From assembly GCF_028583425.1 (NCBI RefSeq), contig NC_072807.1:32927001-32991000 (forward strand): DNA of 64,000 nucleotides. The letters run 5' to 3'. Of the stretch, positions 8,243 to 63,128 are shown in pieces (position 1 is the first letter of the stretch; every line of letters begins with the position of its first letter). The DNA is from Eublepharis macularius (taxonomy: Eukaryota; Chordata; Lepidosauria; Squamata; Eublepharidae). Position numbers and translations under genes: made by a program. The notes beneath the pieces are model-generated. The model did not search any database. It saw only the letters and a program-made list of their open reading frames with translations, and was not told the origin of the DNA.

Positions 8243-9072
8243 TAGTTGGACCCTCCAAAATCTGGGTTTCTAGTTGCATGTGCCAAAGGTGGAAAAATAT
8301 GTGCAGTGCCCGATTCGCACAAAATGGTGAATGGGTTATTGAGAGGTTCACACACACAATGCACTCTCTCGCTATATACGTGGTAGCTATATCAATCAAA
8401 GCGATTAAAACATGGGAAACCCTTACAAAGACTATCAATGTAGTTCCACTTGCTGGTAAACACAAAGGTATAACAGCTAATATAACACTGAAGTTAAAAA
8501 CATTTTTAAAATGTTTTTAGTTGTCCATGCACAGGAAGGCATTGCTCTAAAAGAATCTACTGGATCCTATTTTCCCAGCTAAAAACAACTGGGAATCTGA
8601 CAGAGTAAAACTGGATGGTTTTTAGGACCCTGAGAAGCAGGCACTCACAAACAGTCCTGAAACTTCCCAACATTTTTTAGAGCCTGTTGCTTATTCATTC
8701 AGATCAGGAGCAAAACCCCGTCCAGCCAACAGGGAAAGAGTGAGCGGGATAAACCAACATCCTTGCAGAGGCACAGCAGCAATGTGAAAAAAGACAAGGG
8801 AAAAAACTTTTCAGACCCTTTTGAGATCTCAAAAACCTCTTTCCTTGCCGTCTCTCCTCCTTCACAAGCTCATCATGAAGCTTGTGGGACACCTCTGCAG
8901 CTTAAAACAAGCCAGGAATGGACAGAGTTGAGATTTATTCACTGAAAAAAGAAGGGGACGCTCTGGAGAGAAAGGACGCAAGAACGACTGCTACTGAGCA
9001 TCCAGGCGACTGGGCTGCACTTTCTTCCCCCAAATCCATCCACCAGGTTCAGCTGCTTTGATCTTGGCCACA
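8243..9072 (+). promoter_or_regulatory. LOXL1: LOXL1 upstream region and probable 5' UTR
   Basis: This is the sequence immediately 5' of the LOXL1 start codon. I see no convincing TATA box or CpG island. The transcription start cannot be placed from sequence alone; the 5' UTR probably covers part of 8940-9072. The bases before the start codon (gccacaATGa) give a good Kozak context with A at -3. Confidence 0.4.
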
Positions 9073-10264
9073 ATGACATCTCCTGGCTTTTGGGACCTGT
9101 GGGCTTTGGCTGGCTGTGGACTTTTCCTGCTTGTCCACGGGCAACATTCCCAGGGAGACAACGGACACTGGAGGCAAATGATTCAGTGGGAAAACAACGG
9201 CAGAGTATACAGCCTCCTGAACACAGGCTCAGAGTACGTGCCTGCAAGTCATGTGCGAGCAGATAGCAGCGCAAGAGTCTTGCTGGCAGACACCGCCGCA
9301 AGCCAAGGGAGAAGGCCACAAGGGAACACCAGGCGACAGGCGCCCAGTTTGCCTGTCAGGTCAAGTTCCGACACCATCCGGGGACACACACGACATCCGT
9401 TTGGCTTTGGACAAGTCCCGGACAACTGGAGGGACGGGCCCACCGGGGATAGCAGTGCCAATTCCCAACGACCCCGCTCACCCACCACTCGACAGCGACA
9501 GGTTGGGGCCGCTTCTTCCTCTTCTGCCTCTTTCTCCTCTTTTGGACAGCTCTACCCCCAGGCCTCCTACCCTCAGCCACCATTTGTCAATCAGTACGAG
9601 ACATACGACCCCCAGGTGCCCCGTACATATGACGAGAGCTACACCTACTATCAGAGCACAGGAGCGGGAGGGGGTGCCGTGGCCGCAGCCGCAGCCAGTG
9701 CAGGAGTTGTATACCCTTTCCAGCCCAGGGTGAGGTATGAGGATTATACAGAGGACCAGAATCCTTATCGGGCCCAAGGGTACTACCCCACCCAGGAGAG
9801 ATCCTACGTGCAGGTACCGCAGCAGCTTCAGCCCTCTGATGGCCTAGACAGAAGGTTCTCCCACAGCCTCTATCACAACACTGGAACTAGCTATGACCAA
9901 AGCGTCCAACAGGACCCTTATTCCTCCACCCAGAACCAACAGGCGGCGGGACAAGGGGTCCCCGTGGCAGATAACTTGCATATCAACTCTGGATCTCCTG
10001 TGAGTACCGGCACTAGATACGGGAATGAGCCGTGGCCAGGGCAATATCCTCCTTTTGGAGAAACGCAAGCGGAGTCCTACATTCCTCCTCGCGTGGAATC
10101 ACAGCCACCTTTCCGGTCCTTAGACTCCAATGGGGTCCCTAGGCCTGAACCCTACCTTCCTATCAGGAATGCTGAACCTCCCCAGCTGATTCCAGACAAC
10201 CAAGGTGTTAACCAAGCACGGGTCAGCGTGGGCAGCATCTACAGACCCAATCAGAATGGACGGG
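9073..10264 (+). CDS. LOXL1: LOXL1 coding exon 1: signal peptide and propeptide
   Basis: It encodes residues 1-397 plus one base. The first ATG in frame is at 9073; the open frame extends upstream only through non-ATG codons. Residues 1-23 ([15 protein letters not shown] core) form a typical signal peptide. The rest is the low-complexity propeptide, rich in Tyr, Gln, Pro and Ser, with a Gly/Ala run ([13 protein letters not shown]) and Tyr-rich patches such as YDESYTYYQ and [17 protein letters not shown]. In this family such regions bind elastin and fibulins and are removed by BMP1-type proteases. It ends CGG G|GTGAGT, a strong donor in phase 1. A near-identical fragment of about 9715-9795 recurs in intron 1 at 11386. 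Confidence 0.97.
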
Positions 10265-13200
10265 GTGAGTCACTGGCGGCTTGTGGGAGGGGCATCGGGG
10301 AGGGGAGGGCACAGTGCATTCTGGGACAGCCCTTTCGCTTAGGTCCCTCGGCAAGGAAGGATGAGGGAAAACTTCCAAGGGTGTTGTAGTACCTAAACAA
10401 TTAAGCAGGTTTCTTGCAGCGCAAACATTCAGGAACGAAACCCCTTTTCATCAGATTCATAGAATCATACCTTCTGTCTGAAGATTATAAATACTTATCA
10501 GGGGTGCTACTGAATTCCATACCCCACCCTCATTTCAACCAAGCTGTCTGACTGAATTTCACAGACCCTATTTCAACCACCGCACACACATACGCTTCTT
10601 TCTTTTTTTGCTTTTTCCTTACACCGATCAAACCCGGGCATCAATTTTCTCGCTATTACCCTGCACCAAAATTTCCCCAGGAAAAGCACTCATTTCTTTC
10701 ATGTTGGCTTTGCCTCAATTGCTTATAACTGGCATTAAAACGCTGTGAACATATCAGAAAAACTGGCCATGAAAATGGGCAAAACGAAACAATGCGTACA
10801 CGGTTGTTGTTCTTAGCGAAAAGCAGTTTTTTCATTTTAGACAAACTTCAGGCTTTGTTGCCCACAATTGTAGGCAACACACCGCCAATTAAGAGAAGTC
10901 TAGAAGGGACCAGCCAGCAATTCTGTTATCATTGTAGCATTAGGACAAGAAAATCTCTGTATGGAATAATTCTTGCTTCTGTACCATATTTAACAGTAAA
11001 GAGACCCTCTCAAGTCCTGGACATGTGAACTGGCAGAAGACTGCAAGGCCCAACAGAAGGCAAATGAAACTTCACAAACTAGGCCTCTGCACACACTCCA
11101 TTCTGCTCTATTTACACAAACCGGGAGCCTGCCAGCTTGTGCTGCCCACCATCAAGTGGGGCCTGGAGATCTCCCAGAATTGCTACTGATCTCCAGACGA
11201 CAGAGATCAGTTCCCCTGGAGAAAACGGCTGCTTTGCAGGGTGGACTCTATGGCATTATACCCTGCGGAAGTCCCTCCCCTTTCCAAACCTTGCCCTCCC
11301 CAGGCCCTCCCCACTTTCTCCAGGTTTCTCCAGGTTTCACCGCCCAGATCTCCAGGAATTTCCCAACTTGGGGCTGGCAACCCTACTTTCCACCCAGGGT
11401 GAGGATTATACAGAGGACCAGAAACCTTATCGGGCCCAAGGGTACTACCCCATCCAGGGTAAAATGCACAATTTTAATTCCCACATTTTTCCAGGTACGG
11501 GTCCCTGGTTTTCTTTGTAAAGTGTAGACACATCGGCTAATGCTTCTTACCCCTAAAAATGTGAGAACCGTGTTCGGCTGGTACTTGGTTCTCTCCCTCT
11601 TCCCTAAAGGCCTCTGATGACAAGTGGACACTTGGAATTGTGAGAAATCCCACCAATCCAAGAAGATCCTAGTAGAAGACACCTGAGTTTGTCCTTGAAA
11701 TTAGGACCCCCCCTTCCAAGTTCCATCCAAGTTCCAGACAAATGGTAAAACAAAACGAGCTCGACTTCATTTCCTTTTGGCCTGTCTCAAGGGTCTCTAG
11801 AGGCCAAAGGGAGTGTGAACCTTCTTGTCACCTTTATCTGACATGCACTAGCTTTCTAGAAACAAAATCGGCTCCCTTTGCTGCGTACCATCAGTTTGCA
11901 GTCTCCTCCCTGTTTTAGCTTAACTCCATTAAGGAGGATACAGAAGTTCTCAAGTTTCAAAGCTTATGAGAGAATCCAGCTGTTCCAAACAATTCAGATT
12001 AAGACAGAAAACCTGAGTCAGTACACAGTTCTTGGACTGGCCCTTGGAACAATTGCTGATTGATCCGGAGAGAGAAACCACCCCCCTCTAGGGTTGCCAA
12101 CTCCAGCCTGGGAAATTTCTGGAGTTTGGGGGGAGATGCTTATTGGAAGGGGGGAATTTGGAGAGAAATTCCCCCTAGAATCTGTGATATACTATAGAGT
12201 TTGCCCTCTAAAGCTGCCATTTTCTCCAGGGGAACTGATCTCTGAAGTCTGGAGATCATTTTTAATTCCAGGCAAACTCCAGGCCTCACCCAGAGGTTGG
12301 CAACCCTACACCTCTCCCTAGCCCTTTAGACAGAAACAAATCAGCTTCTCCCACTTTAAACAGTTTAGAGTGAAGTTCAGAATCGGACAAGCCCAGTTCT
12401 TACATAAGACTTTAGGAGCCACAGAGTAAACAAAGAATGCAACATTTCAGGCAGTGAACTTAGGTGGTTTGTTTTTAAAAAAAAAATCAGGTCGTACAAG
12501 GAAGCTCGTCTCGTTCTTTACTTTCACACTTAAATTGACCCGCAAGGTGAATGTCAAACCAACAGTGGGGAGAGGGTAGATTTGATGCCTTTCCCAGGTT
12601 CTGGCTGGCATTGCAAATATCTGGGAAGAGCTCCTGTATTGAAAGACCCTCAGTGGCACTTTTCTCCTTCGTGTTAGATGATGCAGATGTGTTAGGCTTC
12701 CTGGGTTGGGGAGAAAAGCTACCAGTAACAGGCTTCCTCCAGCTTGGAGGAAAGGTGGATATTCGGTTTAAAGAGTCTGTTAGATCCTTTAAGGTATTGT
12801 TTTTCAAACTTAATTCCTAAGGAATCTAGAATTCCTGGGATGCCCAACTGGAGTCAGTCAGGTACAACGGACAGCAGACATTCCAACATTTTCCACGTAA
12901 ACATGTGTGCATGAACGCTAAGGCACCGTGTAACACGCAGCCTGTTGCTTCGCGCCCTGCTGCTGCAGAAGTATATTTTGAAAAGTTATTTTTTAAAGAG
13001 AACAGTGGGTTAAAAGTACCTCTAATGAACACAGTCCTTTCTGGCTTTTAAGTCAATGAATGACCCAGCTATTGCACAATACATGGATGCACCATACAGG
13101 AGGAAGGCCAGAGCCCTGAGTGCCAGGTTATGGGGGGGGGGGTCAGTGATCCTCAGTAAGTGAACCAATATCCTATATGCATTAAACAAATTCAAACTGG

Positions 13201-28600: not shown

Positions 28601-31600
28601 CTAGTTTAAGGACTCAACTCAAAGCAAATAGAATCTTTTTCCCCTGGCAGCTGGTAAACTTCCGGGGAGGAAGTGTGCCACAGACAGGGAGCCACCACCC
28701 AAAAGTCCCTGTTTTCTGGCAACTGATAATCTCAGCTCCACAGATGTGGACACACAGAGCAGACCTTGAGGTGAAGATCTTAACTAGTGGGCAAGCCTTT
28801 CATTCCATGCAAGCTCCTGTATCTCCCCCACCCCAAATTGGAGTTTGATGAGGGAGGCAATTAAGATCAGGAAAAGGGCAAGAGGGAAAGACATCAATGC
28901 TTCTAGCTACTGAGTTGATTTCCTGATCAGATTTAGATTACCCCAACCAGCAAAGTGTGAACCAACAAAAAAAATGATAGGCTGCCTACTCCAGTTTGGG
29001 AAATTCCTGGAAATCTGGGGGTGTGCCTGGAGGGGTGTGCTACCATAGAGTCCGTGCTCTGAAGTTGCCTTTTCTTCCAGGGGAACTGATCTCTGAAGTC
29101 TGGAGATCAGCTGTAATTCCAGGAGAACTCTGGGCCCCACCTGGAAATTGGCAACCTTATCAAGAGATGATCCATCGCTTTGGTCTTGAGAACTAGAGAA
29201 TGACCTAATGCTACCAGCTGTGGCTGAGCCGGGATTTGAACCATGGGCTTAATTTCCCAACTTCCACCTTCTGTTTGGCTGTACAGCCCTAGGTTTTTTC
29301 AGGGATATAGTCTTCTGAGAAGGAACTTTTGGAAAGCAAGCCTGTGTGTGTTTGGGTCCTCTTAGGGTGGTTAAATGGCTGCACTATGCAAACGTCAACC
29401 CTACGCTGGCCAACATGTTTACGAGCATTACAAACACAGTTAGCAGAGTTGCCTGGTATGTAATGAAGCACGTGCAAATGAGCCTGCACTACAGAGAGTG
29501 CGTGCATGGACTGAGAATCAAACTTAAGCTCTGAGCCTTGGTTAAATTTTAGAAAAGAAATATGCGTTCATTTATTGTTGCAACTCCATATAGGATAAGA
29601 AAGGGAAGAGAAAGATATTTTTCAAGCTGTCTAGTCTAAAGATGATGCGGGTGGATATCAGGATGGCACGTTTGGTATCCTTAGTAGCAAGATGGAGAGG
29701 TGTGTGATATGAGCTGTCATGAAAAGGAAGTCCCAGAGAATACAATCTACACTTCAAAGGACGGCAGCGGGATAGTAGAAAGCAAGGAAAAACAAATCCC
29801 TGACCTTTTTATCTCACTGCCTCTTTGATTGTCCCCCTCTGAAACTCGAAAAAGAGACAGCATTACAGTTCTCCTCGTCTTGCCCATGTCTCTTCCTCTC
29901 CCACAATAGCAACAATCAAACAGGGTCACATAAATAAAGGCAGAGAGGTTCAATAGTAACTGGAACCTCCTCAGAGAAGTCCCGTAGGAACACATGAGGC
30001 TTCTTCCTTTGTGCTTTACTCAATGAGTCTCTCTACATGAGACGCCTCAGTGCGTATTCGTCAAGGGTAGGGAGTAGGGGTGTGCAAGGAAAAAACTTTC
30101 GGCTTTCTTGTTTCGGGATTACCCGAAACAAGATTCTCTACCGTCATTAGCCGAAAGCCGAAACAAGAATCTCTTTCGGGATTCGGGATTCGGCATTATT
30201 TCGGCATTCTTTCGGGATTCTTTCGGGTTTTTTTGTTGGGAAAATGCCTCCGTCTTTCAGGACGCCTGGAGGAGGCATTTTCCCACCAAATAAGCCCAAA
30301 ATTGGTGGGGACCTTCCTCTAACCCTTCTCTAACAACTACCCAAGTTTCAGACAGATTGGACTTTGGGGGGCCATGTTATGGCCCCCCAAAGCAGGTCCC
30401 CCCATCCTCCCCATAAGAAAGCAAAGGAGCAGCATATTGTTAGCATGCTGCTGCTGATCTTTCTTCATTATTTCCTATGGGGAAAAAATGAAGAGGCAGG
30501 CTTCCTTTGCCAGGGGTGGCATTTTGCATGCAAAATGCCCCCCAGCCCTCAGGGGCCCTTCTCCCACCCCTCCTCCCACCCCCCACCAAGGCTCAGCCTG
30601 CTCCCACTTGGGGGGGGCATTTCATGGCCTCCCCAAGTAGGTGCTCTAATCTCTACCACTGACAGCTGGGGGAGGCTTGTGTTGCCAGGGGTGGCATTTT
30701 GCATGCAAAATGCCCCCCAACCCTCTGGGGCCCTTCTCCCACCCCTCCTCCCACCCCCCACCAAGGCTCAGCCTGCTCCCACTTGGGGGGGCCGTTTCAT
30801 GGCCTCCCCAAGTAGGTGCTCTCAGCCCCTAAAGTCCACCCCTCACAGCCCCACACAAACCCAATTCCCCCCCAGCTGCCACACACAGACCCAAATCCCC
30901 CCAGTAGCCCCTCACAGACCCAAATCAACCCCCACCTGCCCCACACCCACCATAACCCCAGGAACAGGCTGGCCTGCCCTCCCCTTTTGGGAACCCCTAA
31001 ACTCTCTTTCCCAGGGCAGTTCTGCACAGACAAGGGGTGCCACAATGGTGGCAGTGCCAAATCGTCCCTGGGAAAGAGCACCTGCCCTGGCACACAGACA
31101 ACCACCCCCCTGACCCCCCCACCACCCGCAGAGAAGGCTGGCCAGCCTGCCCCATTGTTCCCTATGCTGGGAACCAACCTCCCATCAAAGAAGGGAACAC
31201 AGACACACAATCATTAAGTTTAAAAAACCTTTATTTTCTCATTTTCAAATTACAAGTGGTCAACAAATCACAACATATTACACTTATTGTCCCTCATAGC
31301 ACAACACAACACAATTAACTACACATCAGAGAATCTTAAACACAATTTTTTTTTTGAAATGGACAAACAGTAAAGTTTTGAACATTACAACAGGTCACAT
31401 AGTGAGCGGGCACAACAGGGCATGGAAACAGAAGATGATCATAATAACTACCAGCCTAATACAACTCTCCCTCCATAACATGACTTAATGGGGGGGAACC
31501 ACTGCAACAAAATCCCCCCCCAACCCTCTGGGGCCCTTCTCCCACCCTTCCTCCCATCCCCCCACCAAGGCTCAGCCTGCTCCCACTTGGGGGGGCCATT

Positions 31601-34600
31601 TCATGGCCTCCCCAAGTGGGTGCTCTGCTCTCATCTCTACCACTGACAGCTGGGAGAGGCTTGTCTTGCCAGGGGTGGCATTTTGCATGCCAAATGCCAC
31701 CCTCACCCTCAGGTGCCCTTCTCCCACCCTTCCCCCCACCCCCCACCACATGCATTCCTTGACAATCAAGAAATCTGGAGTTAAATATGATGTGCATGTA
31801 AGTCCCTCAAAGACAGAAGCAATATGGAGGTAATGACCCATTTGATTTCCACAACCTCAGACACAATTAGGGATCCGTTTCCCCTTGGTGGGGGATCCCC
31901 CACTCTCACCTATCACCCCGAAGGGGGAAAGTCAGTGAATGAGCCTTCAAGGTACGCTCCAGGGGCTGCTGCCGTGATGTCACTGATGTCATCTGGCTGC
32001 CCTGAGAGTATGCCTGTGCTTTGCAGTGGGCTGATTTGGGCCCTACAGGCCAAAGCAGGATCCCTTGTGGCCCAAATCTGCCTGCTGTGAATTGTGCGTG
32101 CTCCCCAGCCTTGTGTGATGATCACATCACTTCCTAGAACAGACATCATCATGCCAGAGCATTGCCATTAAATGATCATGCGTGTGTGAACAGACCCTAA
32201 GTATCCTGTAGGCTTCAGTGATGGTATAGTAATGTTTTCACTCACATTATAGAGAGAGAGAGAGACAGAGAAGGGGGGGAGGCACTGAAACTAGATTATT
32301 TCTTCTATTTTACTGTCCCCTTCCAAAGCCAGGGTGGCATTGGCACAATGCCCCCCTCCCCCCGGCCAGAGCCTTAGTACCAGTATGCATTGACAGGCCC
32401 ATGCATCATAGTCCTTTTTGAGACCCAGCCAAGTTGTGTGCCTTTTGGAGAAAAATGTTCAAGTTGCTGGTGGGGGTATGAACAATTTTTAGATATCCAC
32501 TGTAGTGCAATGGCTAGAGAGTTGGTCTAGAATCTGGCAGACTCTGATTCTGTGCCTTGTAGGCTTGATGGATGTTCTTGGCTCAGCCTAAGTAAACAAT
32601 TGTGTTGTGTTTTCCAGAGGCAGTCTAGGTGATTTTGGGGCCCTGGACAAATGTTCTGGACGGGGCCCCAGAACCAGTGCCGCCCCACCACTGGCTCCTT
32701 GCCAAGGCCAAGCAATTTGGTCACCTAGGCCCCAGATAGAGTGGGCAGGAGTGCGTTGTTTCCTTCCTCCCCCCCCTCCACCCCCTCATACAACTAAGAA
32801 GGCCATCGGTGGAGTCACTCCAATGTGAGGCATGGAGCAGCTGTCTATTGTTAGCCTGGTTGTGATGAGGGTGAAACAAATCAAGGGAGAACAGCAATGT
32901 GTAAACCACTCTAGGTTCCCATGGGGGAGAAAACCGGGGCATAAGATAAACCTTTAATTTGGTGGGGAGGGGGTATATACATTTTATGTGTATGTGTCTG
33001 TATGTTTTATGCATTCAAATCACTTGTGGTGTACTTTAGAATTATATTGAGCTCCACAGTATCCCAAAAACCTTGTCCATGTATTGCAAACCGAAGTCAA
33101 TCTACCACATCTAGGGTATTCTTCTTTTCCCTACTGCCTTCAATTTTTCTTAGCATTATTGTCTTTTCTAGTGAACCTTGTCTTCTCATGATGTGACATA
33201 AGCACTATCATCAATTGATATCTTCAAGGGAGAAAGCAGGCCTGATTTGGTCTGGATGCCACTTACATGTCTTTTTCGGAGTCCATGGTACATGTAAATT
33301 GAAACTTTCTTCCCACTTCACAGTGTGAATGCTTTTTCCTCCTATGAGCTTTGTCTAAATTTTACTGTACTGATACTGCTCATTTGGCCAAAAGGCCTGC
33401 CCTTGATCAATGCCACATTAAATACTTCATAATAAAAATATGTTTTTAGAACCATTTAAAAGTGTCCTTAAGTGCCATACGCTGATTTAAAAAAACATAA
33501 GCTAAATGTTTGGGAACACAACCAGATATGTGAATGACTGAAATGCAGCCCAATCCCACTGCTACTTAAAATCCATTTTTGATGGAGGTCTGGATTGTCT
33601 TACATTGGTGTCATTGGGCTTGGAATCAGGAACCTGGAAGCGTTCCATGGGGGCTACAACTTTCATGCCAAGGCTAAGAGGGTGGGAACGGGATCTCTCT
33701 GGGGTGGCAAACTCTGGCCTTGGAAGTTACTGGCAATTTGGGGGTGGGACTTGTGGAAAGGAAAATCTGAGTAGGGATCTCCCCCAGAATCCATGGTCCG
33801 CATTTGCCCTCTAAAGAGATTGCCCTTGGAAGCAGCCAGTTTCTCTGTAGGGAACTACTCTCTCTAACCTGAACTCAAGCCCAACCAGGAGTTTGGCAGC
33901 CCTAGGAAAATTTCAGAAAAAGATGGCAAAGGAGGGCCAGCAACTGATAGAGGCATGGAAGCCCACACCAGGACAGTAGCAGGGGCCTACTTGGGCACAA
34001 GGGACAACCAGTGCTCTCATCCCCCATAGTCCACTCCTTACAGCCCCACACAAACCCAGTTCCCCCACCCCAGCTGCCACACACAGACCCAAATCCTCCA
34101 CTCAGCCCCTCTCAGAACCAAAACCACCCTCAGCTGCCCCACACCCAGTACCCCAGGAACAGGCTGGCCAGCCTGCCCCATTGTTCCCTATGCTGGGAAC
34201 CAACCTCCCATCAAAGAAGGGAACACAGACACACAATCATTAAGTTTAAAAAACCTTTATTTTCTCATTTTCAAATTACAAGTGGTCAACAAATCACAAC
34301 ATATTACACTTATTGTCCCTCATAGCACAACACAACACAATTAACTACACATCAGAGAATCTTAAACACAATTTTTCTTTTGAAATGGACAAACAGTAAA
34401 GTTTTGAACATTACAGCAGGTTACATAGTGAGCGGGCACAACAGGGCATGGAAACAGAAGATGATCATAACTACCAGCCTAATACAACTCTCCCTCCATA
34501 ACATGACTAAATGGGGGGGAACCACTGCAACAGGGTCCAGCAGAACCTATGTCATTTCCTGTGGCTGTGCTTTCAGTTCAGACACACAAAGCTGAACTGG

Positions 34601-37600
34601 GCACTTCCAAGGCACTGGACAATGGTATTTCTGGAGCAGTTCTGCAGAGGTCTCCCCCCACCCCCACACCAGCCTCAGAATTTACCTGGGAACATCTGTG
34701 AGAGATCATCATTGGCCGGTGCCCATCCACCACTCTACCCGCATCCCCCAACCATGCAAACCCAACATTAACATCAAATTTTTTTTTTTTAAACATGAAC
34801 ATTCAATCAACTTTTAAAAAACATAATCACAACATTTTTTTTTGGTTTTTTTTTTTTTTACATGAACATTCAATCAACTTTTAAAAAACATAATCACAAC
34901 ATTTTTTTTTGGTTTTTTTTCCTTTTTTTTACATGAACGGAACATCAACTTTCAAAAAACAGTACAACAATTCTTCTACAATTTTTTTTACAAGGATTTC
35001 ATCTGATAAAAACACCTAAGCAATCCCTATCTAACCTGTTTCTCCCTCCAGTAGCAATCCATGTTTCTGGGGCATTATTTTTCATAATAAATTTGGTCCC
35101 ACAGGGTATGTCTCAGTGATGGGAGATGTTTTGAATACCCTGGGGGGGGGGGCTTTCAAATTGCTGGGTGTTTTCCCTTTGCCACTGGTTCCTAACCACC
35201 CTCCCTCTACTGGCCGGTTTTAACTGTATATACAGGGTTTTATACAGGGGAGAGCGCGATTCCAAAGGATTGGACTCATAGAGGATGCAGGCCACAAGTT
35301 GGGCTCACCTCAGTCACTCTGGAAGTCCAGTCCTGAGAAATCGAAGAGGCGAGAGTTGACCTTCAGGAAGGTCAACTGCTCGACTCTCCATGGGAGAAGG
35401 CGAGTGCGATGTGGGCCGACAATGTCGCCCGCATGTGAAAAGACGCGCTCGCTCTCCACGCTCGTCGGAGGGCATGAGAGCAGCCGCTGCGCCTCGAGGG
35501 AGAGGTCCGGCCAGACCGACTCCTTCCTGGCCCAGTAGCTGAGCGGATCGGTGGAGAGCGACTCGCAGGGCTCCGCGAGGTAGTCCCTGACCATCGCCTC
35601 CGCCGGATCCTCTCTCACGGTCCTCACGACCCCAGAGGGGACGAGGGCCCACCGGAGCATCTCCATCTCCATCGGCACTCCGGTGGTGGCCTCGGGGGGG
35701 GCCTGCGCAGAGGGGGCGTCAGAGGGACCCGCACGGCAGGGCCCCTCTTGCGTCCCCCCTGTCGACAGGCGTCCCCTCTTGGCCTGCCTGCGCCTCACCC
35801 AAGAGCAGAGCCCGTCTCTGGCTTGGGTGAGGTTCCCGTCCCGCTCGGCGAAAGTGCCCTTTATGCGCGGGTCACACATGGTCGCCAACATGTATGACTC
35901 TTCCTTAGTGAGAGGAGTTAGCCTGGCAGCTATGCCCTGCTGCAGCCTTCTCACTAATGCGCGCACCGCTGGAACAAGGTCAGCACGGGGCGCGACCCGG
36001 TCTGCAAGGGTGGCCAGATTCCTCTGGAGCGTGTGCACCAGGGGAATGACCAGACCGAGGGTCGCCGTGTCTGACGAGACCGCCACAGTGAAGTCCTTGA
36101 AGGGCTTCAGGACCTCCACTGTCTGGGTGATGGTGAGCCAATCCTCCCGGTTGAACTCACCCACCTGACTCGCACCGCGGTGCTCGGAGAGCCACGCGTG
36201 GAGTGCGGCCTGCTGCTCCACCAAGCGCTCAAGCATGGCGCAGGTGGAGTTCCAGCGAGTGCTGACGTCAGTGATCAGAGCGTGCTCTGGCACACCTGTC
36301 CTGACCTGTGTCTGGCGCAGTTCGTGCGTGGCCTTCACGCTGCGCGAGAAGTGACCCGTGAGCCTCCGACATTTCTGGACAAGTAACTGGAGTTCACGGG
36401 TCCGGGTATCCACGGGTTCCTTCGAGGAGCCCAACCCCAGCGCATCTCTCACCACTAGGTGAAGCTTGTGAGCGGCACAGTAGACGCTCTCTCGGCTCAC
36501 TAGATGCGCCGCTGCCCTCATGTTCTTGCCACCGTCCGTCACCATGCATCCCACGGTGGCGGGTCCCTGGCCTATCCACTCGTCCAACTGTCTCCTTAAG
36601 GTGGCAGCGATGTTCTCCGCCGTGTGGGACACGTCGAGCACCTCGGCGTGAAGCAAGGCCTTGCAGTAGCCGGCCTGGCGGTCTCGCATCCTTCCCTGTC
36701 TAGCTGTGCTAGGCACCTCCCCCCGGCCCCCACCCAGAACCGACTCGGGTTCCCACCAGTGAGCAGTAAGCGAGAGGTACGCTTGCTGCACACTTGGGCA
36801 GGTCCAGATGTCCGATGTGAAGTGCACAGTTCTCCCGGCAACCCGGGACAGCTGTGCCTTCACATGATCCCTGGCAGCCCTGTAAAACGAGGGCACCACC
36901 GATCTGCTCAACGACGTGCGAGCAGGGACGGCGTACCAGGGAAAGCAATCTTGGAGCAGCCCTGAGAAGCCGAAGTCTTCCACTACGGAATACGGTTGCC
37001 CATCCACTGCTATCATGTTGACGATGTGGCGCGTGATGCGCCTGCTCGCCCTCCGGATCCCCTCTCTGGGCACACTAGCGCCCTGCATACCAAGCATCTC
37101 CGGGAGAGAGGCTTGGCATCCCTTTCCTGCAGGTACCCTTGGGGGGAGAGCACCAGAGGAGCCTGCCTCCTTCTGGCTAGCTGGCGGCCGTGCGGCGCCA
37201 CTCGAACCCTCCTCCCGAAGAAGCACCGCCTGGTGGTGCCTCTTCATATGGTACCTCATCCCAGACGTGGAGAGATGCCACACATCTTTGCCACGGCTGA
37301 CGCGCTGCCTACAATGCAGGCACAGGGCTGCTCGGGGATCCTCCGTTGCCTGGAAGTGCTTCCAGATTTCGGAGGAAAAGGGCATCCCACGCTTCCCAGG
37401 AGAAGCGCGTTCGGGACCACCCTGTGGCACCTCCTGTGAGGTGCTCTGGCCGGACACACCGTGTCCCACTCTCGGCCGGGCAGGTGGGGATGGACGAGGC
37501 TGAAGGGGCAGAGATGTGGGCTCTTCCACCACAGTCTCTGCCTCTTCCTCCCGCGTCCTCTCCTCCTGCACAGCCGCGAGAGGCCTGCTGCTGGCCTCAG

Positions 37601-40600
37601 AGGAAACTGGGGTGGACCGCCCCAGGGGGGGTCTCACGGGCAGTTCCTCCAACATCCTCCGGGTTCCTGGGGTGAGCGGGAGCGCAGGGAAAGTCATGTG
37701 CTCCGCGCCCATCCCAGGAGACACCACATGCTGCCCCTCCTCCAGCAGCTGGCTCGCAACCACTGGAGGAGGAGGAGCCTCAGCAGCAGGCCCCTGCCCA
37801 GTGCCAGCCCCTGCCTCACGCACCCGGGTTGGGGGTGGCCCTCCAGCAGCTGCCTCAGGAAAGAGAGTCTTGCGAACCCTCTTCCTGTCACCAGAAGCCA
37901 GGCTGGTGAACGGCAGCAGCGCAGGGGAGGGCCTCCTCCGCTCAGATGGAGGGGCTGCCGCAGCAGTCCCCCTCCCCCTCCCCTCCTCCCCTCTAGATTT
38001 CTCCCTAGCCTTTCCCCCGGGGCCCCTCTCTGCTTTCCTCTCCGACATACTTTCCCCTCCCAAATTCAACCCTAACTAATCAGAAAAGATTTAGAAAACA
38101 AAGGTCAACTTTGTTTTCAAGACCTAACTAACCTGCTCTAAATCTGTGCTTCTAGTGGCTCTGTGACTTGGAGATGAACAATCAAGTGCCTTTTTAAGCA
38201 ACCCTATTTATGTCAGGGAACCTGAGCCTGCCAATCAGCTGAATTCCTCTGGAATTGAGCTGGCCCTAAACCCCAATAACAGGTGACAAAGCCTTAAACA
38301 CTCACACACTAGTATGCCCGGGCCGGCCTGGCACCACCACGGGTGCCAGAGATGGGCAGTGGAACCCTAGTTATGGGGGCACTAATGGGAAGCCTATTGA
38401 CAGCTATTACAAATTTTTATATATATATATATATATATAGAATTCAAACCTAACACTCACTCACTAATGCTTTCCCTGCTGAGTCCCTATTTAGTTTTTT
38501 AAAAAAAACTAGGCTCGGTTTCCCTAATAATTATGTTGAGGGCAATTATCCACTGATCACCTACCAACTGGCCTACCTACCTAAGAGACACTATTTAGCG
38601 GGACCGATGTATCTGTGGTATGTCGGTGTGGGGTGTGGATGTGGTGTTTTGAAGATGAGCCTCCCCCCTCCCAAGCTAGCAAGAACCCACCCCCAAGGCC
38701 ACCCAAATGTGAACCCGGACTCGCTCACAGTAACACCAGTCCTGCAGTCCAGCGATGTTCAGGCGGTCTTGCAGCTGGTCCTCCTCTCCTCCACGATGCT
38801 GTCAAGAAAATTGGAAATGTTAGCAGAGTCAACACCACACGCCGCACACGCAACCCCCAAAATTCAAGGCCCCGTTGCACAAGCCAAGTCAGCCCCCCCC
38901 CCTTAAAGGCTAGGGCCAACCAGCAGCAAAACAAAACACATCCACCCAGCAGAGCTTCTGGCCTGTGCAGGCCAAAAGCTGGCACACTCATTTTTTAGTC
39001 CTGTGAAACAGTAGTTCATGCCCACCCCACACTCAAACTTGAAAAATGAAACATGAAAGAAAGCAGGCACTGCGATCAATGCTGGCCCCCCTAACCCCCA
39101 AACAATATCCTCTTGCCCAACCAGAAAATGCCCCCCCCCCCCCGGCCCAAGCCATAAAGACAGAGCCAAAGCATATGCTCGCAGGTAGGCACAGCAGCAG
39201 ACATAAGCTCAAAAACCAAATTTAACAACAACCCTACCAGTCCACCAGTGCAGATGTCCAGCAATGTTGATCCTCCACGCAGAGATCTGCAGGCCGATGT
39301 CCACCAAGTGCAGTCCAGTCCAGAAGAGGTCCACCAACGATAAACAACCTGAATGTGAAGCAAAACAGTGAGTGCCAGGCCAGCAAACGGGAAGGGTTAC
39401 CAAAGCCGGAGCAGCAGGCCTGTGTGTGGGCCGAAGGCTGGCACAGTTGATCAGGACGGAGCCTGTTGGGAATCCTTGCAAGCAGGGGACCAGACACAGA
39501 AACGCAAGCCACACCATTCCAGATTGTGGAGCACAACTGTGAGTGCCAGGCCAGCAACCAAAAAGGGTTACCTTGGCCAAAGCAGCATACCTGTGTGTGG
39601 CCCACAGGCTGGCACAGTTGATCAGGACGGAGCCTGTTGGGAATCCTTGCAAGCAGGGGACCAGACACAGAAAAGCAAGCCACACCATTCCAGATTGTGA
39701 AGCACAACTGTGAGAGCCAGCCAGAAGAAAGGCTTCTGGCCTGTGTAGGCCCAAAGCTGGCACACTCTTGTTTTAATCTTAAAACAGTGGATCAAGCTTA
39801 AAGAAGGCAAGCACAACAACCAATGCTGAACCCCCCCCCCCACCATCAAACATTGTCTGCCCAACCTGTCCCCCAGGCCATACCTGTGTGTGGCCCACAG
39901 GCTGGCACAGTTGATCAGGACGGAGCCTGTTGGGAATCCTTGCAAGCAGGGGACCAGACACAGAAAGGCAAGCCACACCATTCCAGATTGTGAAGCACAA
40001 CTGTGAGAGCCAGCCAGAAGAAAGGCTTCTGGCCTGTGTAGGCCCAAAGCTGGCACACTCTTGTTTTGATCTTAAAACAGTGGATCAAGCTTAAAGAAGG
40101 CAAGCACAACAACCAATGCTGAAACCCCCACCCCACCATCAAACATTGTCTGCCCAACCTGTCCCCCAGGCCATGCCAAGAATAAACTGCAACACCTTTT
40201 TGCAGAGGCAGGCCACAGCAGCACATTGCCCAGCATCAAAAAAATTTACAAAAATTTTAAAAAGGCCTACCAGGTGTCCTCTCAGGATGTCCAGCACAGT
40301 TGATCCTCCAGGCAGATGTCCTCCAGGCTCCAGGTGCAGTCTCTCTTCTTCTCCTCTCTCGGTCACAGCTCAGCAGCAGCAGCAACAGAAGTGTTCCAGA
40401 CAGTCTTGCTCCAAATTTAAATCCCCTGCTGCAGCCTCAGCCAAAGATTTAAATCTATTGGCTGGCATGAGAATGCAGCAGTGGGATTGGTGACTCCTAA
40501 AGTCCCCACTCCCCTGCCTTTCCCCACCCACACTCCAAGAGCCACCCTCCTCCTGCTCCCCCTCCCCTACCTGTTAGTTTTGGCGGGAATCTCTGCTGCT

Positions 40601-43600
40601 TTGCAAATGCAAAGTGCAATGCAATGCTTGCACCTTGCATTTGCAAGGCAAAGCAGGACTCCCTATCCTCCTTTGCAAGAGGGGTGGGGGGTGACAGAAG
40701 GAGTGAGTGATTCACTCCTTCTCCCCCCCTCCCCTCTTCTAAGAGCCTGCAGGAAGCCTTTGCTTCCAGCAGGATTTTGCTAGCCGCTTGCTAAGGCAAA
40801 CGGCTAGCAAAAACAAAATGGCGATTCTCGAATGCCGAAAGAATGCCGAAAGAATCCCGAAACGTTTCGGGTTTTTCTTTCGGCAATCCCGAAACGTTTC
40901 GGCATTCCCCGAAACGTTTCGGGATTCTTGAAGAATGCCGAAACACTTTTGTTTCGGCATTCTTTCGGCATTCTGAATGCCGAAACGCACATCCCTAGTA
41001 GGGAGACACAATGTTAGCCAGGAAGCATAGTTTAAAAAGACATAACCGGCAGTGATGGCTCCTCAGAGAGTTTGTTAATTTCATCTTCGCTTCCCTGAAG
41101 GCTCTGTCAATTTCACCTCTCCAGTCTAAAACTCTGTGAGATTGCAACCAGAGGACAGCAAGGAATGGAAATGGGCTGGAGCTGCCCTCCAAAGTGGGGC
41201 TTGGATCTGGAGGGGTTATATTGGGCTGAAGTTTCCCTGGTGGGCATTTCACAGCCCCTTAACACAGCTCCAGTGTGTAGCAAAGCCTTTTCCCTGCTGC
41301 CAGCTCTGTCTTCTTAAACTACCTTTCCCGGCTACCATTGCATCTCCCGACACGTGTTCTTCATGAGTCAGATGTCTTGTGTAGATGAGCTGTTGCATTG
41401 TGGGATTCACTGCCAGGGTAGGCATTGAGGGTCACTAGCACAGGTCGCTGTAAAAGGGAGTTAGACAGATTCATGGAAGAGAGGTCCATCTGGGGCCATG
41501 ACGAATCACGGGAACGTTCATGTTCAGAAGCAGTAAAACTCTGGAGCTCAGGGCTGGGAAGCAACATCAGGGGAAGGCCTTCCAGAGCAGCAAGCTGGCT
41601 GCTGTATGAAACGTGGTGCTGGACTAGATGGGCCATGGATCTGATCCCAGCAGGGTCCTGCTTAAGTTCTTACATTCTCAGCGGTCCACCTCACCCAATA
41701 CAATCCCCTCCAACTAGCAGGCATTCTCCTGGGTCTCAAGCAGAGGTCTCTTTCATCTCCGCTACCCAAGATCCTTCTAAATAGAGAGGGGCCAGGGACA
41801 TTCTGTGTGTGTCTATGAGGAATCTCCACCCTTCGTGTTCCCTTTCTGTACAGGGTCTGAGTCCAGGATGCTACGACACTTACAACGCGGACATCGACTG
41901 CCAGTGGATTGATATCACAGATGTGCAGCCTGGGAATTATATCCTCAAGGTCGGTGGCTCTTTTTAATGCCCCAGGATGAAAGAAAGATTAGCGCAGGGA
42001 GTGAGCAAAAGCCACTCCTGCTTAAGGGCCAAATTAGACACCATCAGCACATTTTTATCCCCACCTTCTTTCATGAGCCACAGAGTGCAGTATGTGCTTC
42101 CTTCTCCCTTCACCTTTTTGGCACGCCCTTGAGTAAGGTTGTCAGGTCACCTGGGGGTGAAAGTGAGGCACGGTGGTCACAGGGGGGAGTTGTGTGGAGG
42201 AGAACTCCCTTGCAGTGCGCACATGTTCCGGAGCACCCTACGTGGCTCTGGGAATGACGTAGTGCTGTAATGTCTCTTTAAGTAAAGCAGCTTTTTAGCA
42301 CAGCTGAAAGGTATTTAGGGACGAAGCTGAAGTTGGTTCCGGGTTCCCTATTTGCAGTTCCTATTTCTTTATTCATAAAGCAAAACAAAAGTATTGGGGG
42401 AATTTTATTTTGGGGTAGGAGACGTTCTCTGGACTGCTGAGTTGTATGATTTGGGGTGATCTGAAGATTTTTTTTTCCGGGTGCAGCTACCCCCCCTTCT
42501 GCTTATTGATTTGTTCTGGGGGCACCCTACTTTGAAGCTGTTAAGAACCAGACTTTGTAGGAAGACCCAGTATACGTGCACTTAGAGGGCAGAGTCCGCT
42601 GGATATGGAGGTGTATATGTGCTCCTACAGTCTTTATGCTGGGTTACGAAGCTTTTCAATTAACTCCAATATTTGTTTTTTGCTCTGCGAATAAGAAACT
42701 AGGAACTGCGAATAAGGAACTGGGAACTAACTTCAGCTTCGTTATTTGGAGTTTTCGTATTCTCCTGTTAGTTGGAGTCTGGGAGAAGTAGTTTGTTTGG
42801 AACCTTTTGTGGGGTTCCAATAATCTGACTTATCTACTGTGTGGGACGTCTGAGTGACTTCACGAGTGTCTTTTGTGATCTGAGCTTCAGGGCCGGATCT
42901 AGGGTTGCCCGCGCCTGGGTCAACCCAAGCCCCACGATCCCCTGAGCACACTCCCGGCACTGCGTGATGACGTCACTTTCATTACGTCATCACCCGGGGG
43001 CCGCCAGGAAAAGCATGCCACCCCGCTGCCACTGGAGGGAAGGGAGCGCACGGCAAGCCAGCTGCCCCGGAACACGGCGCGCTGCAGAGGTGGTGGCGGC
43101 CGCGCAGGCGGCTGAGTGAAGGGCTGGAAAGCCACCCGCGCCGTTCCCCTTCCCTGGTGATGGGGCGTCAGGCTTGCTATGCACTCCCTTCCCTCCAGCA
43201 GTAGGTAGCGAAGGCAGCACACTTCCAGGGGGCACCCTGCGCTGCTGCCAGCCGCCCGGTCAGCAGGGCAGATGAATGGTGCAGCAGCCTTCCAGCCCTC
43301 CATCCAGCCGCCCGTGCAGCCACTGCCAGCTCCACGGCACGCTGTGTTCCGGGAAGGCCATCTTGCCTCCCCCTTTTTGGCGGTGCCGGGGGCAGGGTAA
43401 CCCCCCTGCCCCCCCTCAATCCGACCCTGCTGAGCTGATACAACGACATTACAGACATCATTCCTGGTGCAATGAGGAAGTAATGGGTTATGCCAGGGGC
43501 TGATTGAGTAAAAATCAGCCCCAAACACTAAATTGGGGGCCAGTTTTTACTCAATCGGCCCTGGGAACAACCCATCACTTTTGCACTGTGTCTGGAATAA

Positions 43601-62856: not shown

Positions 62857-63128
62857 ATAATAATAACAACAACAACATTCAATTTATATATCGCCCTTCA
62901 GGACAACTTAATGCCCACTCAGAGCTCTGGAGAGCCGTGACTAGCCCAAGGTCACCCAGCTGGCTTCAAGTGGAGGAGTGGGGAATCAAACCTGGCTCTC
63001 CAGATTAGAATCCTGCCGCTCTTAAGTGACTGACCCAAGGTCACCCAGCTGGCTTCAAACGGAGGAGTGGGGAATCAAACCCGGCTCTCCAGATTAGAGT
63101 CCCGCGCTCTTAACCCCTACACCAAACT
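62857..63128 (-). repeat. tRNA-derived SINE with internal duplication
   Basis: The family tail ('gggcgatatataaattg' on the minus strand) is followed by two head segments in tandem. 'aggtcacccagctggcttc' and 'ccggctctccagattaga'-like words occur twice. Confidence 0.8.

Follow-up and report, generated by a model that had tools for sequence, protein, structure and literature searches.

A large, apparently recently mobile hAT transposon family with a complete element in the genome of Eublepharis macularius

A complete hAT element of 10,923 bp occupies positions 30075–40997 of the window, the 64,000-nucleotide stretch of Eublepharis macularius DNA analysed here. It is very probably an autonomous DNA transposon whose target site is of Ac type and whose cut-and-paste spread is very recent. 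The first-pass annotation had proposed a large, complete and recently active autonomous hAT family, and the genome-wide data agree with it: many copies share the same ends, the sampled ones are near identical, and each copy read bears an exact target duplication. Judged from sequence, members of the family were still moving in the very recent past and may be doing so today.

The left terminal inverted repeat is TAGGGGTGTGC (30075–30085, plus strand) and the right one TAGGGATGTGC (40987–40997, minus strand); TAGGGGTGTGC agrees with the complement of TAGGGATGTGC at 10 of 11 positions. The element is flanked by GTAGGGAG at 30067–30074 and, as an exact 8-bp match, at 40998–41005; among the lengths of 5 to 14 bp tried, the flanks were identical at exactly 8 bp only. 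The matching ends and exact target duplication described at first reading are thereby confirmed. A search of the window for the 11-bp end with up to two mismatches returned 11 matches against 18.6 expected, so the ends alone are not beyond chance; one of the matches was exact and three had one mismatch, the opposite end being among these three. The element is set above chance by its encoded protein, by its target duplication, which is exact, and by ends that recur exactly in the genome.

On the minus strand, a frame of 919 codons is open at 35310–38069 and begins with TTG. The unbroken 919-codon BED-hAT transposase claimed earlier holds with regard to the open frame and both domains, but the protein itself, read from the ATG at 38048, has 912 residues and not 919 (35310–38048, stop included; based on the frame list, Pfam and reading across copies). 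In the 912-residue numbering, the BED zinc finger (PF02892, E 8.7e-9) covers residues 226–273 (37230–37373, minus strand; 233–280 in the 919-codon frame), with its CxxC...H...H motif beginning at residue 243. The C-terminal hAT dimerisation region (PF05699, Dimer_Tnp_hAT, E 1.3e-15) covers residues 821–896 (35361–35588, minus strand; 828–903 in the longer frame) and includes the glutamate of the SER motif. Both domains exceed their Pfam cut-offs, in keeping with hAT membership. D413, D505, W599 and E867 line up with Hermes residues that we take to be its catalytic positions, which puts the DDE positions of the RNase-H-like core in place by an alignment that is significant overall and weak in both aspartate segments on their own (0.4 bits for the first; 12.7 bits, i-Evalue 0.23, for the second). 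A search of NCBIfam returned no family, and no transposase relatives were confirmed in collections of viral and prokaryote DNA, a result that carries little weight.

The 11-bp inverted repeats fall inside the 5–27 bp reported for the short TIRs of the hAT superfamily (PMC3517528, PMC2874221). In length, the copies read (10,923–15,774 bp, n=20) lie outside both the 2.5–5 kb given for hAT elements (PMC2874221) and the alternative description of <4 kb (PMC3517528, PMC2874221). Membership is nevertheless kept, since length is a description in these papers and not a mechanistic criterion. The earlier remark that 10.9 kb is much longer than a usual hAT element is correct in that this is at least twice the review lengths; as a typical size for the family it fails, the window copy being the shortest of the 20.

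A search of the assembly for other copies with the same ends, which the first-pass annotation had suggested, returned 891 exact occurrences of the 43-nt left end, 2015 of the 47-nt right end and 647 of a 53-nt transposase segment, with reversed-pattern controls of 0 throughout. The left 29 nt with up to three mismatches occurred 3229 times, so older or variant relatives exist beyond the copies read. All 40 left ends scored were identical over 140 bp, a 41st match being a partial end that belongs to a nested pair, and all 40 right ends scored were identical over 168 bp. When the transposase was searched by tblastn, 50 places were scored of 17,308 first-look candidates; all 50 were full length and 49 were stop-free. 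The places among the matches listed lie on C1–C5 and C18. The transposase segment is kept in 31 of 39 copies bearing this left end, and 78 of 99 right ends on C1:0–109.35 Mb are without it.

The copies read comprise the window copy and 19 others selected for 100% identical ends. The exact 8-bp duplication of a hAT insertion was found in all 20, as well as on both members of the nested pair at C2:54.99–55.02 Mb, where one copy lies inside another. As the nested insertion has its own duplication, its intact relatives act as the empty site. An intact frame of 912–913 aa is present in 16 of the 20 copies (15 of 19 independent ones, c11 being a duplicate of c10) and frameshifts occur in the other 4. 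Together with the 647 exact segments, this gives an estimate of several hundred transposase genes in the family.

The mean pairwise difference among the 20 copies was 0.263% over the frame and the left 4.6 kb (~7.3 kb) and 0.207% over the ORF, where 10 of 190 pairs were identical. In the left 300 bp it reached 0.70%, a value inflated by one poorly aligned copy. Selection for perfect ends makes both the 0.26% divergence and the share of intact frames lean towards young copies. Of eight left-end loci compared, on one strand only, three matched the window at 99.1–99.4% identity over 1.64 kb. Copies c10, c12 and c13 carry different duplications within 0.56 Mb and show 0 differences over the ~7.3 kb compared. 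Coding changes among copies amounted to 28 non-synonymous and 15 synonymous ones against a neutral expectation of 2.17 to 1, and with these assumed mutation weights no clear purifying selection between copies was detected.

The 19 independent duplications share a preference for nTnnnnAn, the pattern of the Ac family, with T2 in 16, A7 in 15 and the two together in 13; given the composition of the flanks, P is about 6e-11. The Buster pattern is absent, with T4 in 2 of 19 and A5 in 1 of 19. The families of the superfamily have been split by target choice, with nnnTAnnn as the Buster pattern (PMC3517528), and nTnnnnAn is reported for Hermes targets (PMC10368747). By target site, as far as sequence can tell, the element is of Ac type.

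Both ends are rich in TTTCGG/CCGAAA repeats, which are candidate binding sites of the BED finger. Nine occur in the first 200 bp (30097–30226; shuffle mean 0.85, maximum 5) and 13 in the last 200 bp (40835–40985; shuffle mean 0.86, maximum 4; 1000 shuffles each). From hAT biochemistry, the BED finger would bind these repeats clustered inside both ends, and a transposase multimer would pair the ends and then excise the element, which would be joined to a staggered 8-bp nTnnnnAn target. Copies could be gained where the sister serves to refill the vacated donor site, or where excision runs ahead of replication. Two copies of a 300-nt internal repeat, 97% identical, are located at 34144–34443, nearer the transposase, and at 31118–31417, farther from it, with minus-strand AATAAA near 34256 and 31230, respectively. 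The CpG observed/expected ratio is 0.64 in the transposase frame. The end segments have 0.42 and 0.68, while the two remaining stretches of the element average 0.11 and 0.20, under the host flanks (0.32–0.33). CpG richness of the frame had been taken as a sign of recent insertion, an argument that is invalid given these low stretches; the recency of the element follows from copy identity and not from CpG content. The pattern fits a methylating genome in which CpGs have been retained at functionally required places.

Upstream of the transposase, repeat analysis identified a tandem array of a 293-bp unit, with 2 units in the window copy (39586–40171). Two 171-bp tandem units, 88% alike, are related to this array and overlap it (39348–39689). 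Genome-wide, a 48-nt piece of the 293-bp unit was counted 4354 times. Across the 20 copies read the array has 2–18 near-full units, and this variation is the main reason why sampled lengths differ between 10.9 and 15.8 kb.

It is very improbable that the hAT family is old and inactive and that gene conversion, segmental duplication or assembly error, and not recent transposition, made its copies alike. This reading draws on c10 and c11, which have the same duplication and 300-bp flanks that are 100% identical, and which lie ~52 kb apart in inverted orientation; duplication, or retention of a second haplotype, thus does occur. Each of the remaining copies read, however, bears its own 8-bp duplication, and besides c10/c11 the flanks match in short repeat-like stretches only (<=93 bp, 80–91% identical). 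The spread over several chromosomes among the matches listed and the self-nested insertion point the same way, and the distinct exact duplications refute an old family for the copies read. Somewhat less improbable, though still unlikely, is that the extra ~6 kb is captured host DNA or a transported second gene. The element does have at least twice the hAT length given in reviews (PMC2874221), and its left 5 kb is long, is without a recognised gene and holds the 300-nt duplication. Against such cargo, a 249-aa plus-strand frame has no Pfam match, and a 184-aa frame in the array matches only Calponin, at 15.8 bits against a cut-off of 21.1. A 48-mer from the interior, at 33.2 kb, was counted 776 times with <=3 mismatches, more often than the transposase segment (647) and less often than the left end (891), and by this count the interior behaves as element sequence. 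A second, cargo protein family was accordingly rejected, none being above the Pfam cut-off, while the interior may be of old single-copy host origin.

Within the preferred reading of a recently mobile autonomous hAT, the array would lie in the 5' leader or promoter region of the transposase gene and may tune transposase output. That it instead arises neutrally from slippage or gap repair and has no effect on the transposase is compatible with an autonomous element and appears about as probable as its opposite. Neutrality is favoured by the turnover of the units, which number 12, 12 and 8 in c10, c12 and c13 and 12 and 18 in the duplicates c10 and c11; with little or no difference between these copies over 7.3 kb, the array changes faster than point mutation. 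Rough splice scoring of the leader likewise gave candidate donors and no acceptor above threshold. On the other hand, the array is almost always kept near the 5' end, which may invite a regulatory role: among the matches listed on C1:0–62.2 Mb, of the 19 elements that carry an exact match to the transposase segment, 18 show at least two exact unit matches and one shows none. A bolder and rather doubtful proposal is a giant autonomous hAT that is mobile to this day in a living vertebrate, with intact transposase genes in the hundreds and the fast-changing array as an evolvable dial of transposase expression. Mouse L1, with its tandem promoter monomers, offers a likeness for such a dial.

To our knowledge, few autonomous DNA transposons are naturally active in vertebrates, and a natural hAT family of 11–16 kb whose transposase genes are estimated at several hundred stands out. 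At title and abstract level no prior description of this family was found, and an earlier repeat-library name is possible; with the end 11-mers as the query, no title among the matches listed looked related. The family touches on the question of what has kept internally deleted forms from displacing the autonomous one among copies with this left end, and its arrays, of 2–18 units, form a natural series for asking whether upstream repeats control transposase output. The ends and the protein might serve in gene transfer of large cargo. A capacity of >10 kb is reported for Tol2 vectors (PMC2874221), so movement at the size of this element is not unheard of. Tol1 and Tol2 of medaka have been called the first reported naturally active autonomous DNA transposons of vertebrates (PMC10175614). 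The present element, which may be active as well, differs from them in size (10.9–15.8 kb against 4.4 kb for Tol1 and 4.7 kb for Tol2; PMC10175614) and in its coding frame, a single open stretch where the Tol2 gene has four exons (PMC2874221).

Hermes, the house fly hAT of the Ac family, shares the BED finger, the aligned DDE positions, the C-terminal dimerisation region, subterminal repeats near both ends and 8-bp nTnnnnAn targets (PMC10368747). It is ~3 kb long with a 612-aa transposase and AAGT repeats (PMC10368747), whereas the element measures 10.9–15.8 kb, encodes 912 aa that include a long N-terminal extension, and carries TTTCGG as its repeat. Domesticated ZBED genes, most of them of Ac-family descent (PMC3606216), also combine BED with the hAT transposase core; they are host genes, whereas the element is repetitive and mobile and has its own ends and target duplications.

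Maize Activator (Ac), a plant element of 4.6 kb, presumably has end sequences similar to those found here and, as far as we know, lacks an upstream tandem array of the 293-bp kind. Its transposase is reported to bind subterminal repeats (PMC10368747), as would be expected here, and it shows local hopping (PMC2874221), which for Tol2 is entered as low in a table (PMC2874221). In the present family local hopping on C1 is suggestive only. With one duplicate dropped, the 84 gaps between exact left ends on C1 showed no clear excess below 100 kb or 1 Mb (P 0.14 and 0.53), while 4 were shorter than 50 kb against 1.4 expected (P 0.05) and 16 were shorter than 300 kb against 8.0 expected (P 0.0025).

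The element at positions 30075-40997 of the window is real and complete, which bears out the first-pass annotation's claim of a complete hAT transposon with matching ends and an exact duplication. Its terminal inverted repeats agree at all but one of 11 positions, the adjacent target-site duplication, GTAGGGAG, is exactly 8 bp, and a minus-strand frame codes for a protein in which a BED finger is combined with a hAT dimerisation region. The 11-bp ends by themselves are within chance for the window, a scan of which returned 11 matches with up to two mismatches vs. 18.6 expected by chance. From its start ATG at 38048, the transposase comprises 912 aa, which replaces the earlier figure of 919 codons, a count that starts at a TTG. 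Hermes was found by phmmer against solved structures with a whole-sequence E of 5.7e-9, and D413, D505, W599, and E867 (912-aa numbering) lie inside motifs aligned to it by phmmer, with only 0.4 bits for the first-aspartate stretch and an i-Evalue of 0.23 for the next. The aligned positions are presumably the catalytic positions of Hermes.

The leftmost 200 bp of the element contained 9 occurrences of the motif TTTCGG/CCGAAA and the rightmost 200 bp contained 13, against 2 in the 10.5 kb between these end segments. In 1000 shuffles per end, the mean was 0.85 (maximum 5) on the left and 0.86 (maximum 4) on the right. BED fingers of Hermes are reported to act on subterminal repeats, and cooperative binding of such repeats is reported for the Ac transposase (both PMC10368747). 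By analogy, the transposase described here may bind the TTTCGG/CCGAAA repeats. Two copies of a 300-nt segment, each with AATAAA on the minus strand, lie 3 kb from one another in the element (31118-31417 and 34144-34443, 97% identity), and this region was collinear in six copies compared with the window copy.

The first-pass annotation had proposed a search for other copies sharing the ends, and these proved abundant. Across 72 contigs and 2.24 Gb of host genome, in which the window lies at C18:32927001-32991000, 891 exact matches to the 43-nt left end, 2015 to the 47-nt right end, and 647 to a 53-nt transposase segment were found, along with 3229 to the left 29 nt at up to three mismatches; reversed-pattern controls returned 0 in each case. 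For the full left end, the best 40 of 1043 first-look candidates were scored, and for the right end the best 40 of 687; every one of them was 100% identical to the window copy, these being the top-scoring places by search design. Among the best 50 of 17308 tblastn candidates for the transposase, 50 were full length and 49 lacked a stop, the remaining one carrying a TAG.

Twenty copies were read, consisting of the window copy and 19 with perfect ends (fifteen on contig C1 and four on C2), a selection that skews the sample to young copies. The 8-bp duplication was exact in 20/20, and the frame was intact at 912-913 aa in 16/20, with frameshifts in c03, c07, c09, and c18. Mean pairwise difference was 0.207% in the frame (190 pairs, 10 identical), 0.296% in the left 4.6 kb, and 0.263% for both combined. 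The last 300 bp differed by 0.32% on average and the first 300 bp by 0.70%, a value inflated by one poorly aligned copy. Changes in the frame were 28 non-synonymous, 15 synonymous, and 0 stop, the neutral expectation being 2.17 to 1 with assumed mutation weights. With the neutral rate set at an assumed, unsourced value of roughly 1-2 changes per billion sites each year, the age of the sampled copies would be around a million years or less. The family is an autonomous hAT, Ac-type by target site, giant in size and very young.

CpG richness, previously put forward as an argument for recent insertion, does not date the insertion. While observed/expected CpG was 0.64 for the frame, and the end segments had 0.42 and 0.68, the two other stretches of the element averaged only 0.11 and 0.20, under the 0.32-0.33 of the host flanks; single 500-bp windows vary, with one at 38501 at 0.39. 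This pattern suggests a long stay in a methylating genome, with function kept where needed.

Copy lengths ranged from 10,923 bp in the window copy, the shortest, to 15,774 bp. In six copies compared with the window copy, the length differences came mainly from a tandem array of 293-bp units located between the transposase and the right end (39586-40171 in the window copy), which held 2-18 near-full units among the 20 copies. A 48-nt piece of the unit occurred 4354 times genome-wide, and at all of the first 100 matches listed a transposase segment was no more than 8 kb away; among the matches listed, the unit was seen in 18/19 elements with a transposase segment. Copies c10, c12, and c13 were identical over the 7.3 kb compared and carried 12, 12, and 8 units, and c10 and c11 carried 12 vs. 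18 with one difference in 7339 compared positions. Since unit number differs between copies that are otherwise (nearly) identical, the array changes faster than point mutations accumulate. At C1:175813752-175865989, c10 and c11 are two inverted occurrences of a single insertion whose flanks are identical over 300 bp, reflecting either a palindromic duplication or a second haplotype left unmerged.

At C2:54991734-55019347, one family member sits inside the left end of another, past base 66. The inner element is flanked on both sides by GTAGAGAA and the outer by GCTGCAAC, each exactly 8 bp. The interrupted stretch is present once in the window copy and in the other left ends with 100% identity, which thus serve as the empty site for the nested insertion. 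With c11 left out as a repeat of c10, 16/19 target duplications had T at position 2 and 15/19 had A at position 7, both occurring together in 13/19 (P about 6e-11 vs. flank composition). This preference is the nTnnnnAn pattern given for Hermes (PMC10368747), not the nnnTAnnn given for Buster elements (PMC3517528).

On C1:0-109.35 Mb, 27 of the 39 exact left ends could be paired with exact right ends, leaving 12 unpaired; 19 pairs spanned 10.6-18.0 kb and 8 spanned 2.3-9.7 kb. A transposase segment lay within 12 kb of 31/39 left ends and near 21/99 exact right ends, and the 78 right ends without one may belong to non-autonomous relatives with a different left end.

About 0.8 kb past the element, a plus-strand Lysyl_oxidase match (E 1.7e-16) was located inside 41830-41950. 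The insertion thus falls within or next to a gene of the lysyl-oxidase (LOX) family, probably in an intron. The upstream frame at 9058-10389 had no match in a Pfam search, and we take it to resemble the first exon of LOXL1. Two 89-bp tandem units at 62937-63113 presumably resemble a common reptile short interspersed repeat.
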